DNA of 6,446 bases. Origin: Candidatus Eiseniibacteriota bacterium (GTDB lineage Bacteria > JAFGKV01). Of this stretch, positions 1,060 to 5,571 are shown in pieces; position 1 is the stretch's first letter, and each line of letters starts with the position of its first letter. The stretch is taken from positions 1 through 6,446 of the forward strand of contig JALOPK010000190.1 of NCBI GenBank assembly GCA_025453925.1. Reading direction: 5' to 3'. The notes under the pieces were generated by a model. The model saw only the letters and a list, made by a program, of their open reading frames with translations. It ran no database searches and was not told the DNA's origin. A program made the translations under genes and the position numbers.

Positions 1060-2334
1060 TCAGACGCCCGTGGTGATCGCCCAGCGGTTGAAATAGCCAA
1101 GTTCCACGTCCGGCAGTTCGGCGCGGAGCGCGTCGACGACCTGCTCCATGCCGAATCCGCGCGGCCATTGCTCCGCGCCGAGAGCGGTGAGGTAGAACCA
1201 GGGATCGATGTTGAGGTTCTTGAGGTGAATGAAACGGACCTTGGCGGTGCGTGCCAGTCTCACGAGCGCGCGGATCTCCTCCGGCTGGTCGGTGACACCC
1301 GGGCACACCAGGTAGTTCAGCATGGTAAAGGCCCCCGCCTCCGCGGCCGCCTCGATGGCCTCCGTCACATCCGCAAGGGAGAAGCCGATGGGCTTGTGGT
1401 AGGCCGCGAACACATCCCGCCGCGCCGACGCGAGGCTCACTCGGACGGAATCGAGCCCGGCCTGGACGAGCCTCTTCAACAACGCTGCGCTGTAGCCGTT
1501 GGTGTTCAGGTTGATCACGCCCCGGGAGGTCACGGCCCGGATCCGCCTGATGCTTTCTTCGATGAGATCGACCTCAGTGAGCGGTTCACCCTCGCAGCCC
1601 TGGCCGAAGCTCACAATGGGCTCTTCGGCACGGGAGAGATGAAAGAGCGCAACGTCGGCCACCTCGCCCGGGGTCGGCGTGAAGGCGATGCGTTCGTGGG
1701 ATGCTGCGCAGCCGTCGGGGGGCTGCAGCGAGAGACATCCCAGACAGCGGGCATTGCAGGCCCTGCTGACCGGGAGCGGCGCTTCCCAGCGGCCCAGGAA
1801 GAGATTCTTCGCCGCGAAGCAATGGTACTCGGTGGCACACCGGATGAGGTGTTCCAGCAACCGGTTGCCCGGCAACGCCTGCCTCAGCGGCGCGACCGCC
1901 GGGATAAGATCGCGATCGTCGTAGTTCTCCGGGCTCCAGCGCGGCGTCGCGTCCAGCGTGACATACGGGGCCACAATGGTCCCACGGGCCCATCCCGCAG
2001 CGGAGTACGACCACAGAGGGAGAGGCCTCCTCGGGTAGTCCGGGCGCGCAGAGGGCAGCAGCAGCCTGAGGTGCCCGGGAGGAAGAAAGGCGGAGACCGC
2101 GAACACGGGACGGCCTCGGTAGCGCTCGACAAAGACGATACGGCCCGTGGAAGGATCCTGGCCCGCGGGCGTACACCCGGGAAGGAAGAACAGCTTGGTG
2201 TACGGCGGGACCTCGTGGACGGTCTCGGGCACGGAGGCCACGGGGTGGATGCCGCTTGCCCCGACCATCAGCAGCCGTGGGTGCTCGAAGATGGCGCCGC
2301 TGTCGTCTGCCATCAGCATGAAGGGAAGTGGCAT
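1060..2334 (-). CDS. Radical SAM enzyme with about 185-residue N-terminal extension, substrate unknown
   Basis: This is a 424-residue radical SAM protein. The cluster motif is CNARCLGC (C193, C197, C200), the CxxxCxxC that holds the 4Fe-4S cluster binding S-adenosylmethionine. The core continues with VSFGQGCEGEPL (241-252, in the place of the Gly-rich SAM-binding motif), INLNTNGYS (274-282), LDSVRVSLAS (294-303) and FTMLNYLVCPGVTD (336-349), which fit the strands of a partial TIM barrel. Residues 1-185 precede the core and include PPYTKLFFLPGC (43-54). Further cysteines are at 54, 166, 172, 209, 247 and 344. The open frame extends about 280 codons further upstream, but that part has no protein-like character. 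The chosen ATG (2334) has GGAG 6 nt before it; the in-frame ATGs at 2319 and 2313 lack one. It is first gene of the leftward unit with DUF2058 and xth. I do not recognise a characterised subfamily and assign no reaction. Confidence 0.88.
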   Translation of the reverse strand: MPLPFMLMADDSGAIFEHPRLLMVGASGIHPVASVPETVHEVPPYTKLFFLPGCTPAGQDPSTGRIVFVERYRGRPVFAVSAFLPPGHLRLLLPSARPDYPRRPLPLWSYSAAGWARGTIVAPYVTLDATPRWSPENYDDRDLIPAVAPLRQALPGNRLLEHLIRCATEYHCFAAKNLFLGRWEAPLPVSRACNARCLGCLSLQPPDGCAASHERIAFTPTPGEVADVALFHLSRAEEPIVSFGQGCEGEPLTEVDLIEESIRRIRAVTSRGVINLNTNGYSAALLKRLVQAGLDSVRVSLASARRDVFAAYHKPIGFSLADVTEAIEAAAEAGAFTMLNYLVCPGVTDQPEEIRALVRLARTAKVRFIHLKNLNIDPWFYLTALGAEQWPRGFGMEQVVDALRAELPDVELGYFNRWAITTGV

Positions 2335-2794: not shown

Positions 2795-2830
2795 ATATAG
2801 GACCTGTCCAATATAGGACAGATCCTATAT
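2795..2830. promoter_or_regulatory. Two overlapping 20-bp near-palindromes, probable operator of an unknown dimeric regulator
   Basis: In a GC-rich region this AT-rich island holds four copies of one half-site. The first palindrome (2795-2814) is ATATAGGAC, spacer CT, GTCCAATAT, with one mismatch between arms. The second (2811-2830) is ATATAGGAC, spacer AG, ATCCTATAT, with one mismatch. They share four bases (ATAT) and their centres are 16 bp apart. This is the form expected for cooperative binding of two dimers. The site sits roughly midway between the divergent genes, about 460 nt from the radical SAM start and 450 nt from the receptor start, so its target is not obvious. The arms contain TATAT and could also overlap a -10 element on either strand. 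I do not match it with confidence to a named regulator. Confidence 0.55.
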
Positions 2831-3282: not shown

Positions 3283-5571
3283 ATGATCATGATGAGAGCT
3301 CACTGTGCCCTCGCCCTCGCGCTGCTTGCGGCCATGGCGGGCGGCGCCTCTTCGCTCCCTATTCGAGGCTTCGCCGTCGACGCCACCAGCGCGGAGCCTC
3401 TCCCCGTCGCCAATGTGTGGCTCGAAGGCACGGGCCGCGGCACGGCGGCCAATCTCGATGGCTACTTCGTGATCAATGATCTGGAGCCAGGCCGTTACGC
3501 CATCCAGGTGTCGTACGTGGGGTACCATACCGCCCGCCGGGAGGTGGAGGTCACGAGAACCCTCATGGAGCCCATCAAGATCGAACTCCTTCCTGAGGCG
3601 GTGCAGCTCGATGTGGTGGAAATCGTCGCGAACGAGGAAACCGCCACCGAGGAGCGGCTCAGTCCCCGGGTCTCGACCGTTCCGGTCGACGGCCTGACCA
3701 TTCGGAGCATGCCCTCTCTCATGGGGGAGATGGACATCCTCCGCGCGGTGCAGACGATTCCCGGCGTCAAAGCATCATCCGACTTGAGCAGCGCCCCCTA
3801 CATCCGCGGAGGGAGCCCGGATCAGACGCTTATCCTGATGGACCGAAACGTCGTGTACAACCCCTCCCACCTCTTCGGGCTGTTTAGCACGTTCAACGCC
3901 GACGCGGTCAAGCGCCTCGATCTGATGAAGGGTGGCTTCCCCGCCGAATACGGCGGCCGGAGCGGCAGTGTCCTCGACGTGATCACCAATGAAGGCAATC
4001 GCCGCGAGACCAAGGGCCTGCTGTCCCTCGGCATCATCTCCGCGCGCGGGGCGCTGGAGGGGCCGCTTCCGGATGGCCGCGGTTCCTTTGCCCTCTCGGC
4101 CCGGCGCACCTACTTCGAGCCGATTCTCGAAGCCCTGCGCGACGTCTACGACACCGACATTCCCGACTACTACTTCTACGATGCCAATGGCAAGGTGAAC
4201 CTCGATCTCTCCCAGAAGACCACGATCACTACCGCCGGCTACCTCGGTAATGACGTCATGACCGCCGAGTTCGGCGATACCGATGAGCGGATCGGCATCC
4301 GGATGGCGTGGGGCAATCGCTCCATCACCGGCAGGCTCCGTCACGTGCTGTCACAGAATCTCTTCCTCTCGATCGGCGGCGCCGTGAGCCGGTACCGCTC
4401 CAACTGGTCGTTCGACACCGACGACGTGCTCCTGGAGGAAGCGGCCAACACCCTTCACGACCAGTCCCTTCAGGCGGATCTGGAGATCCTTGGCCATGAC
4501 CGGCACAGGGTCAAGGCCGGCATCTGTTTCAACAACTACGACATCGACTTCTTCGACAGGTCCGAAGATGTGACCTGGGTATCCGTCGATACCTCCACGA
4601 TCAATCTCTCGGCCTATCTCCAGGACACCTGGCGCCTGGGACCTCTGGTTGAGATACAGCCCGGCATCCGCGCCTACTACCATCAGGCCGGGAAGCACTA
4701 CCGCGTCGATCCGCGTCTCTCCCTCGTGTATCATCATGGCCCGGAGATGCGATTCAAGCTCTCCGTGGGCCGCTACACCCAGTGGATCAACGTCATCACA
4801 TTCGGCGAGGGGTTCAGCAACTTCGACATCTGGATCCCCGTGGATGCATCCGTCAAGCCAACGTACACAAACCAGACGGTCCTCGGCTTCGAGTATGATC
4901 CCCGGGAGGATCTCCAGTTCACCACCGAGGCCTACTACACGGACATGAGGAACCTGACCACCTTCGACCTGCTCTCGGACCAGGGCGACGTCGCGACTGA
5001 CGCGTTCGTCACGGGCCGGGGCTTCGCATATGGCCTGGAGTGGATGGTGCGGCGCAACATGGGTCGAACCACGGGCTGGATCGGCTACTCCCTCTCGTGG
5101 ACACGGCGGCAGTTCCCCGGCACCTATGTCAACAACGGCCAGTGGTTCTACCCACGGTGGGACCGGCGGCACGACTTCATCGTGGTCGCCAACCGAGCCC
5201 TGAGTCATCGTTGGGATCTCTCGGGCTCGTGGAGGTACAATACCGGGCAGGGCTTCACACAGGGGTTGGGCCTCTACACGCTCCGGGAGCCGGGCGTGCC
5301 GCCGGATTGGATGTTCGGCGACGGACGCGTCGTCCTGCCGGGATCCATGAACAACTACCGGTTTCCGGCGGACCATCGCCTGGATGTCACGGCGACCTAC
5401 AACCACACGTTCTTCGGGCTCCCCGCCAAACTGAATCTCAGCGTGTACAATGTCTACAGCCGGAGGAGCTACTGGATTCGGTACTTCGACACCCAGGAGA
5501 ACCCGGTCGAGGTCAGCGATCTCAAGCTGCTGCCGATCGTTCCCCTGATCTCCTACGAAGTGAGGTTCTAA
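3283..5571 (+). CDS. TonB-dependent outer-membrane receptor with N-terminal carboxypeptidase-regulatory-like domain
   Basis: This 762-residue outer-membrane receptor should move an unknown ligand into the periplasm using TonB-ExbBD energy. Residues 1-24 form a signal peptide (MIMMR, then a hydrophobic Ala/Leu run, then GGASS). Residues 25-102 are a carboxypeptidase-regulatory-like domain, with GYFVINDLEPGRYAIQVSYV at 60-79. LDVVEIVANEE (109-119) may act as the TonB box. The plug covers about 137-238: DILRAVQTIPGV, PYIRGGSPDQTLILMDRNVV, FNADAVKRLDLMKGGFPAEY and GGRSGSVLDVI. The rest is the beta barrel, including FYPRWDRRHD, and it ends in aromatic EVRF as outer-membrane proteins do. The start is ATG 3283, with AAGGAG (3270-3275) 7 nt upstream; TTG 3250 and ATG 3265 are also in frame but poorly placed. 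No SusD partner is visible; the neighbour 2 nt downstream is a DUF4249-type lipoprotein. The family is certain, the ligand is not known. Confidence 0.95.
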   Translation: MIMMRAHCALALALLAAMAGGASSLPIRGFAVDATSAEPLPVANVWLEGTGRGTAANLDGYFVINDLEPGRYAIQVSYVGYHTARREVEVTRTLMEPIKIELLPEAVQLDVVEIVANEETATEERLSPRVSTVPVDGLTIRSMPSLMGEMDILRAVQTIPGVKASSDLSSAPYIRGGSPDQTLILMDRNVVYNPSHLFGLFSTFNADAVKRLDLMKGGFPAEYGGRSGSVLDVITNEGNRRETKGLLSLGIISARGALEGPLPDGRGSFALSARRTYFEPILEALRDVYDTDIPDYYFYDANGKVNLDLSQKTTITTAGYLGNDVMTAEFGDTDERIGIRMAWGNRSITGRLRHVLSQNLFLSIGGAVSRYRSNWSFDTDDVLLEEAANTLHDQSLQADLEILGHDRHRVKAGICFNNYDIDFFDRSEDVTWVSVDTSTINLSAYLQDTWRLGPLVEIQPGIRAYYHQAGKHYRVDPRLSLVYHHGPEMRFKLSVGRYTQWINVITFGEGFSNFDIWIPVDASVKPTYTNQTVLGFEYDPREDLQFTTEAYYTDMRNLTTFDLLSDQGDVATDAFVTGRGFAYGLEWMVRRNMGRTTGWIGYSLSWTRRQFPGTYVNNGQWFYPRWDRRHDFIVVANRALSHRWDLSGSWRYNTGQGFTQGLGLYTLREPGVPPDWMFGDGRVVLPGSMNNYRFPADHRLDVTATYNHTFFGLPAKLNLSVYNVYSRRSYWIRYFDTQENPVEVSDLKLLPIVPLISYEVRF

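Follow-up and report, generated by a model that had tools for sequence, protein, structure and literature searches.

A double palindrome dispersed through the intergenic DNA of a bacterial genus as a candidate PadR-family operator

In the 6,446-nt stretch of DNA analysed here (the window; contig G000:C205), a 36-bp pair of overlapping palindromes lies at positions 2795 to 2830, near the middle of a 948-bp gap between two divergent genes. This raises the question of which protein might recognise so ordered an element, and what such an element does at a distance from any called gene start.

A double palindrome between divergent genes

The left palindrome, ATATAGGAC-CT-GTCCAATAT (positions 2795-2814; ATATAGGACCTGTCCAATAT), and the right palindrome, ATATAGGAC-AG-ATCCTATAT (2811-2830; ATATAGGACAGATCCTATAT), are each 20 bp long and each depart from ATATAGGAC-NN-GTCCTATAT by a single mismatch. 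They have ATAT in common (2811-2814), their centres are 16 bp apart, and the entire unit (ATATAGGACCTGTCCAATATAGGACAGATCCTATAT) is also an imperfect inverted repeat. The coordinates and geometry given in an earlier note on this DNA are correct, as is its judgement that such order is improbable by chance, with 0.00 expected in 200 dinucleotide shuffles of the window. Its description of an AT-rich island holds for the 36 bp themselves (36% G+C) and extends no further, with the flanking 50-mers at 72% and 68%. The site lies 460 nt from the start codon of a radical SAM protein on the left (1060-2334, minus strand; start at 2334) and 452 nt from the called start of a TonB-dependent receptor with a carboxypeptidase-regulatory-like domain on the right (3283-5571, plus strand), close to the 450 nt first estimated. 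We agree with the earlier reading that neither neighbouring gene has its ordinary operator here. The site is real and ordered, and predicted to be of the protein-binding type.

A redox or iron-sulfur sensing regulator of the Rrf2 family had been offered as one guess only, which the iron-sulfur enzyme to the left made worth testing. The presence of this enzyme looks incidental: no copy of the site lies upstream of its orthologue in a second species of the genus, and the genes beside the other sites are mixed and have no common function. The Rrf2 guess is not supported. No Rrf2 gene was seen among the neighbour genes examined, and the regulator indicated by the evidence belongs to the PadR family. 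Synteny does not extend to the window locus in the second species, where its two genes occupy different contigs and neither has a site close by, a result that on the TonB side covers only the 395 bp between the match and the end of the contig.

Dispersal and anatomy of the site

When the genome of the window (G000; a 3.9-Mb, 82%-complete assembly in 502 contigs) was scanned with the half-site pattern, ATATAGGACNNGTCCTATAT was found at 87 places with at most 3 mismatches and the tandem core GGACNNGTCC-N6-GGACNNGTCC at 43 places, against 0 in the controls (the reversed pattern for ATATAGGACNNGTCCTATAT). In total the genome carries about 40 double 36-bp sites and at least 5 single palindromes, and all sites in the loci read are intergenic. 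The possibility that the motif occurs at random, raised in the earlier note, is not borne out by these ordered recurrences. The second species (G001, Candidatus Fermentibacteria MAG Zod_Metabat.355) has about 25-30 double sites, with 44 places at 2 or fewer mismatches. The element has been multiplied in this Fermentibacteria genus at some 40 further intergenic places, almost never near a start codon.

Beyond the genus, no sites were found in a genome of the sister genus (G002), none at 1 or fewer mismatches in 57 other genomes, and no tandem site in viral contigs. Among 84,980 reference genomes, from which the window's own may have been left out, the exact tandem pattern had no match, while the exact single palindrome was found in 14 stretches, 5 of them from the Zod_Metabat.355 MAG. 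Literature searches on the sequence and on genome-wide PadR binding returned nothing matching the motif.

An alignment of 63 double sites revealed almost no variation in the outer halves (ATATAGGA), two freely varying NN spacers and looser inner halves. Outside the 36 bp there is bias at just one or two bases per side, and the copies share no longer flank. Together, fixed contact positions, free spacers and unshared flanks argue for selection on protein contacts rather than recent copying of a DNA element. In the second species the inner halves are often GTCA or TGAC; across its sites L052-L076 this amounts to 38%, with the outer halves still GTCC/GGAC, a species-wide shift confined to the inner halves.

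The paired NN spacers in G001 are also mutually reverse complementary more often than expected (9 vs 3.4, p 0.0014, or p 0.03 once orthologous duplicates are removed), whereas the corresponding figures in G000 are 8 vs 6.1 (p 0.23). Examples are seen at L012/L066, L063, L067 and others. Changes at inner positions 15 and 22 are not matched by compensatory ones. The covariation in G001 is not predicted by a simple dimer-pair model, and may reflect either a hairpin role or the mutational correction of near-palindromes.

Comparison of the two species reveals both retention and loss. At L012/L066 and L035/L063 (both between convergent genes), L050/L062, L021/L075 and padR, where the flanking genes are still neighbours, the site stands as a conserved island in diverged DNA. 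Turnover is nevertheless considerable: 0.88 Mb of G001 contigs not picked for sites contained two weak sites only, and no strong site was present alongside the orthologous flank of eleven G000 loci represented in these unselected contigs, among them the kept gene pair L008/L200.

The site at padR promoters

The candidate regulator is an AphA-like protein of the PadR family encoded at G000:C333 (L025:426-989), with PadR and Vir_act_alpha_C domains (Pfam PF03551, 60.2 bits against a cut-off of 27; PF10400, 49.9 bits against 22.4). A copy of the site lies 21 nt before the padR ATG at this locus and 18 nt before that of its 74% identical orthologue in the second species (L074), and in both a TonB-receptor gene comes after padR; the receptor in the window is distantly related to the one in L025 (26% identity). 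Both promoters have TTGACT or TTGACA and, at a spacing of exactly 17 bp, a TATATA that is both the -10 box and the start of the site, a position from which PadR would repress its own synthesis.

Related arrangements were found at distant padR genes. In five Salinibacterium species the exact palindrome fills the 17-bp spacer between TTGAC and TATATT and lies 6 nt before the ATG of a PadR gene whose product is 40-43% identical; in both of the two genomes scanned among these five it is single-copy. In genome G062, a PadR with 45% identity is preceded by TATAGGACTTGTAGCATATAGTACAAGTCCTATA, with centres again 16 bp apart, and this padR copy is the only one found. A 400-genome draw of the same phylum yielded further orthologues, of which L260, L261, L270 and L274 have double palindromes at 16-bp spacing upstream. 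We also observed that the double operator upstream of padR in L096 (G062:C15) lies within a longer, nearly perfect inverted repeat, CCACCCCGTGCCATTATAGGACTTGT-agcatatagt-ACAAGTCCTATAATGGCACGGGGTGG, whose 26-bp arms reach past the operator.

The presence of the site tracks the protein's recognition helix, the position of which we take from general knowledge of the PadR fold. An upstream match was found for all 10 homologues carrying A[D/N]QxQIYRTL (as good in at most 1 of 100 shuffles) and for none of the 24 with other helices (34 examined in all), counts in which the relatedness of the homologues is not corrected for. L278, with the near-match helix VDQMQIYRTL, has no site. The site-free sister genus does encode PadR proteins; the best is only 33% identical, and the site-linked PadR is not among them. 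Taken together, these comparisons make it very probable that PadR is the protein that binds the site, and across several phyla they identify the site as a predicted operator of the padR promoter. The 16-bp-spaced double palindrome is the likely operator for this PadR subfamily.

By sequence, the closest solved structure to this PadR is AphA of Vibrio cholerae (PDB 1yg2, E 6e-24). Its target is palindromic, and it occupies either a single site or, co-operatively, two sites next to each other (PMC6855506). The AphA motif, ATGCAA-N4-TTGCAT, differs from ATATAGGAC-N2-GTCCTATAT, and its peaks cluster at gene 5' ends, whereas the sites described here have a fixed 16-bp double form and avoid gene starts. 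LmrR of Lactococcus lactis, a PadR-like repressor of its own gene, places two dimers on each operator (PMC5428041); the PadR consensus there is ATGT-Nn-ACAT, and LmrR serves a transporter operon rather than tens of non-promoter sites.

Candidate functions of the dispersed copies

Placement was analysed for the 47 sites with both flanking genes called, using a simple codon-usage caller written for this analysis rather than a standard annotator. The padR copy is the only one of the 47 found within 100 bp of a start codon, where 37% would be expected (p 2e-8), while 18 lie between convergent genes, a 2.8-fold enrichment over the 13.6% of intergenic placements expected (p 2e-5), and 10 are in divergent regions. 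Between tandem genes, the stop codon of the upstream gene is closer to the site (median 117 nt) than the next start is (327 nt) in 19 of 19 cases. This bias retains a p of 0.004 after a promoter exclusion zone of 146 bp and of 0.04 after one of 200 bp; most of it results from the avoidance of promoters, and any pull towards gene 3' ends beyond this is only suggested.

We propose that the window carries one copy of the double operator recognised by a PadR-family repressor. One dimer would occupy each 20-bp palindrome, such that two dimers sit side by side on 36 bp, about 1.5 helical turns apart, and PadR would repress its own gene and probably also the TonB-receptor gene behind it. The dispersed copies would be bound by the same PadR, mostly without switching promoters, and could act as a roadblock to RNA polymerase running past gene ends, mark or organise the chromosome, or buffer the level of free PadR by titration. 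From their sequence and placement, a non-promoter role for most dispersed copies seems rather likely, and the window copy, like most, is probably a protein-binding site of this kind. As a whole, this account of PadR double-operator copies with mostly non-promoter roles is the one we favour, with some confidence. More tentatively, and with appreciable doubt, a local, self-repressing PadR may have turned into a chromosome-scale DNA-binding factor, with its double operator spread to about 40 non-promoter positions at which dimer pairs have an architectural or roadblock function, in many cases at the ends of genes.

No bacterial system is known to us in which dispersed sites at the ends of genes are dedicated to a roadblock function. 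DNA-bound repressors are able to halt elongating RNA polymerase (PMC10310618), and the 3'-proximal placement of the sites would suit such a role. Intrinsic-terminator-like signals are no rarer beside sites (5/21) than elsewhere (12/77), so that the roadblock idea gains no support from them.

A more conventional view is that the sites form an ordinary large PadR regulon, acting through long-leader promoters or unannotated small RNAs, in which the window site would control one or both of its flanking genes. The classical promoter operator at padR itself, the 10 of 47 sites in divergent regions and the length of the window's divergent gap are consistent with this view, which we nonetheless consider fairly unlikely given the 18 convergent placements, the single site within 100 bp of a start and the mixed target genes. 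Moreover, a -35 box at fixed spacing was found at padR and at none of the dispersed sites, and an Rfam search of the window gave no match, results which also yield no evidence for the earlier suggestion that a small transcript begins at the site. A REP-like or other mobile palindromic repeat, hairpin-forming and copied by a transposase and resembling or containing a PadR operator by chance, would account for other features. REP elements are typically intergenic, promoter-avoiding and 3'-biased, as are the sites described here; like REP and REPIN sequences with their RAYT transposases, these are short, dispersed extragenic palindromes off promoters; once transcribed, the window copy could form a hairpin of 36 nt (-19 kcal/mol); and the spacers covary in G001 in a setting of high turnover. 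Against such an origin, the spacers are free while the contact positions are fixed, flanks are not common to the copies, G000 displays no spacer covariation, and positions 15 and 22 are uncompensated. Y1_Tnp matches number 3 in G000, 5 in G001 and 4 in site-free G002, and none of the six loci read adjoins a site. A repeat of this type would also leave the regulator-linked promoter copy in other phyla unexplained, and we judge it unlikely.

In number and dispersal the sites also resemble those of Noc in B. subtilis (~70 sites) and SlmA in E. coli (24-52 sites), the latter a TetR-type protein that forms a dimer of dimers on DNA (PMC4726725). Both systems involve tens of dispersed palindromes and protein families unrelated to PadR; those systems involve a site distribution that is asymmetric about the origin-terminus axis and a connection to FtsZ, the data here being at contig level only. 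By analogy, the sites could serve another DNA-binding protein of this genus, for instance one dedicated to the nucleoid or to cell division, with a motif matching the PadR operator. We regard this as very unlikely, since the palindrome, including its 16-bp double form, goes with PadR orthologues in other phyla according to their recognition helix. Least probable of all, to the point of being barely tenable, is a site for site-specific recombination at points of rearrangement. The geometry is similar to that of dif or loxP (15-bp arms, 6-bp centre), and gene order often differs between the species across intergenic regions with a site; however, order is broken as often without one (kept in 1/8 sited vs 2/8 unsited regions, p 1.0), gene order being scrambled generally and sites no more affected than elsewhere, and recombination would again leave the padR promoter link unexplained.

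Under our preferred reading, in which the copies derive from the PadR double operator, a single-target autoregulator has been caught with its site multiplied across the genome in one genus, which belongs to a phylum known almost solely from metagenome assemblies. Such dispersal is unusual. If the dispersed copies do act off promoters, PadR would join the few folds with chromosome-scale tasks, which include TetR in SlmA and ParB in Noc.

For many of the sites a contig end is no more than a few hundred bases away (L018, L021, L034, L043 and L077 in G000; L052, L060, L067 and L075 in G001), perhaps where nearby repeats or hairpins hinder assembly. Single exact palindromes also occur in other settings. 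Two Paraburkholderia species carry one at matching positions (L081 879-898; L082 795-814), some 100 nt in front of a large autotransporter-like gene and with no PadR gene seen alongside, and in Nostoc sp. CHAB 5836 (L087 1375-1394) one precedes a peroxiredoxin-like gene by about 100 nt.
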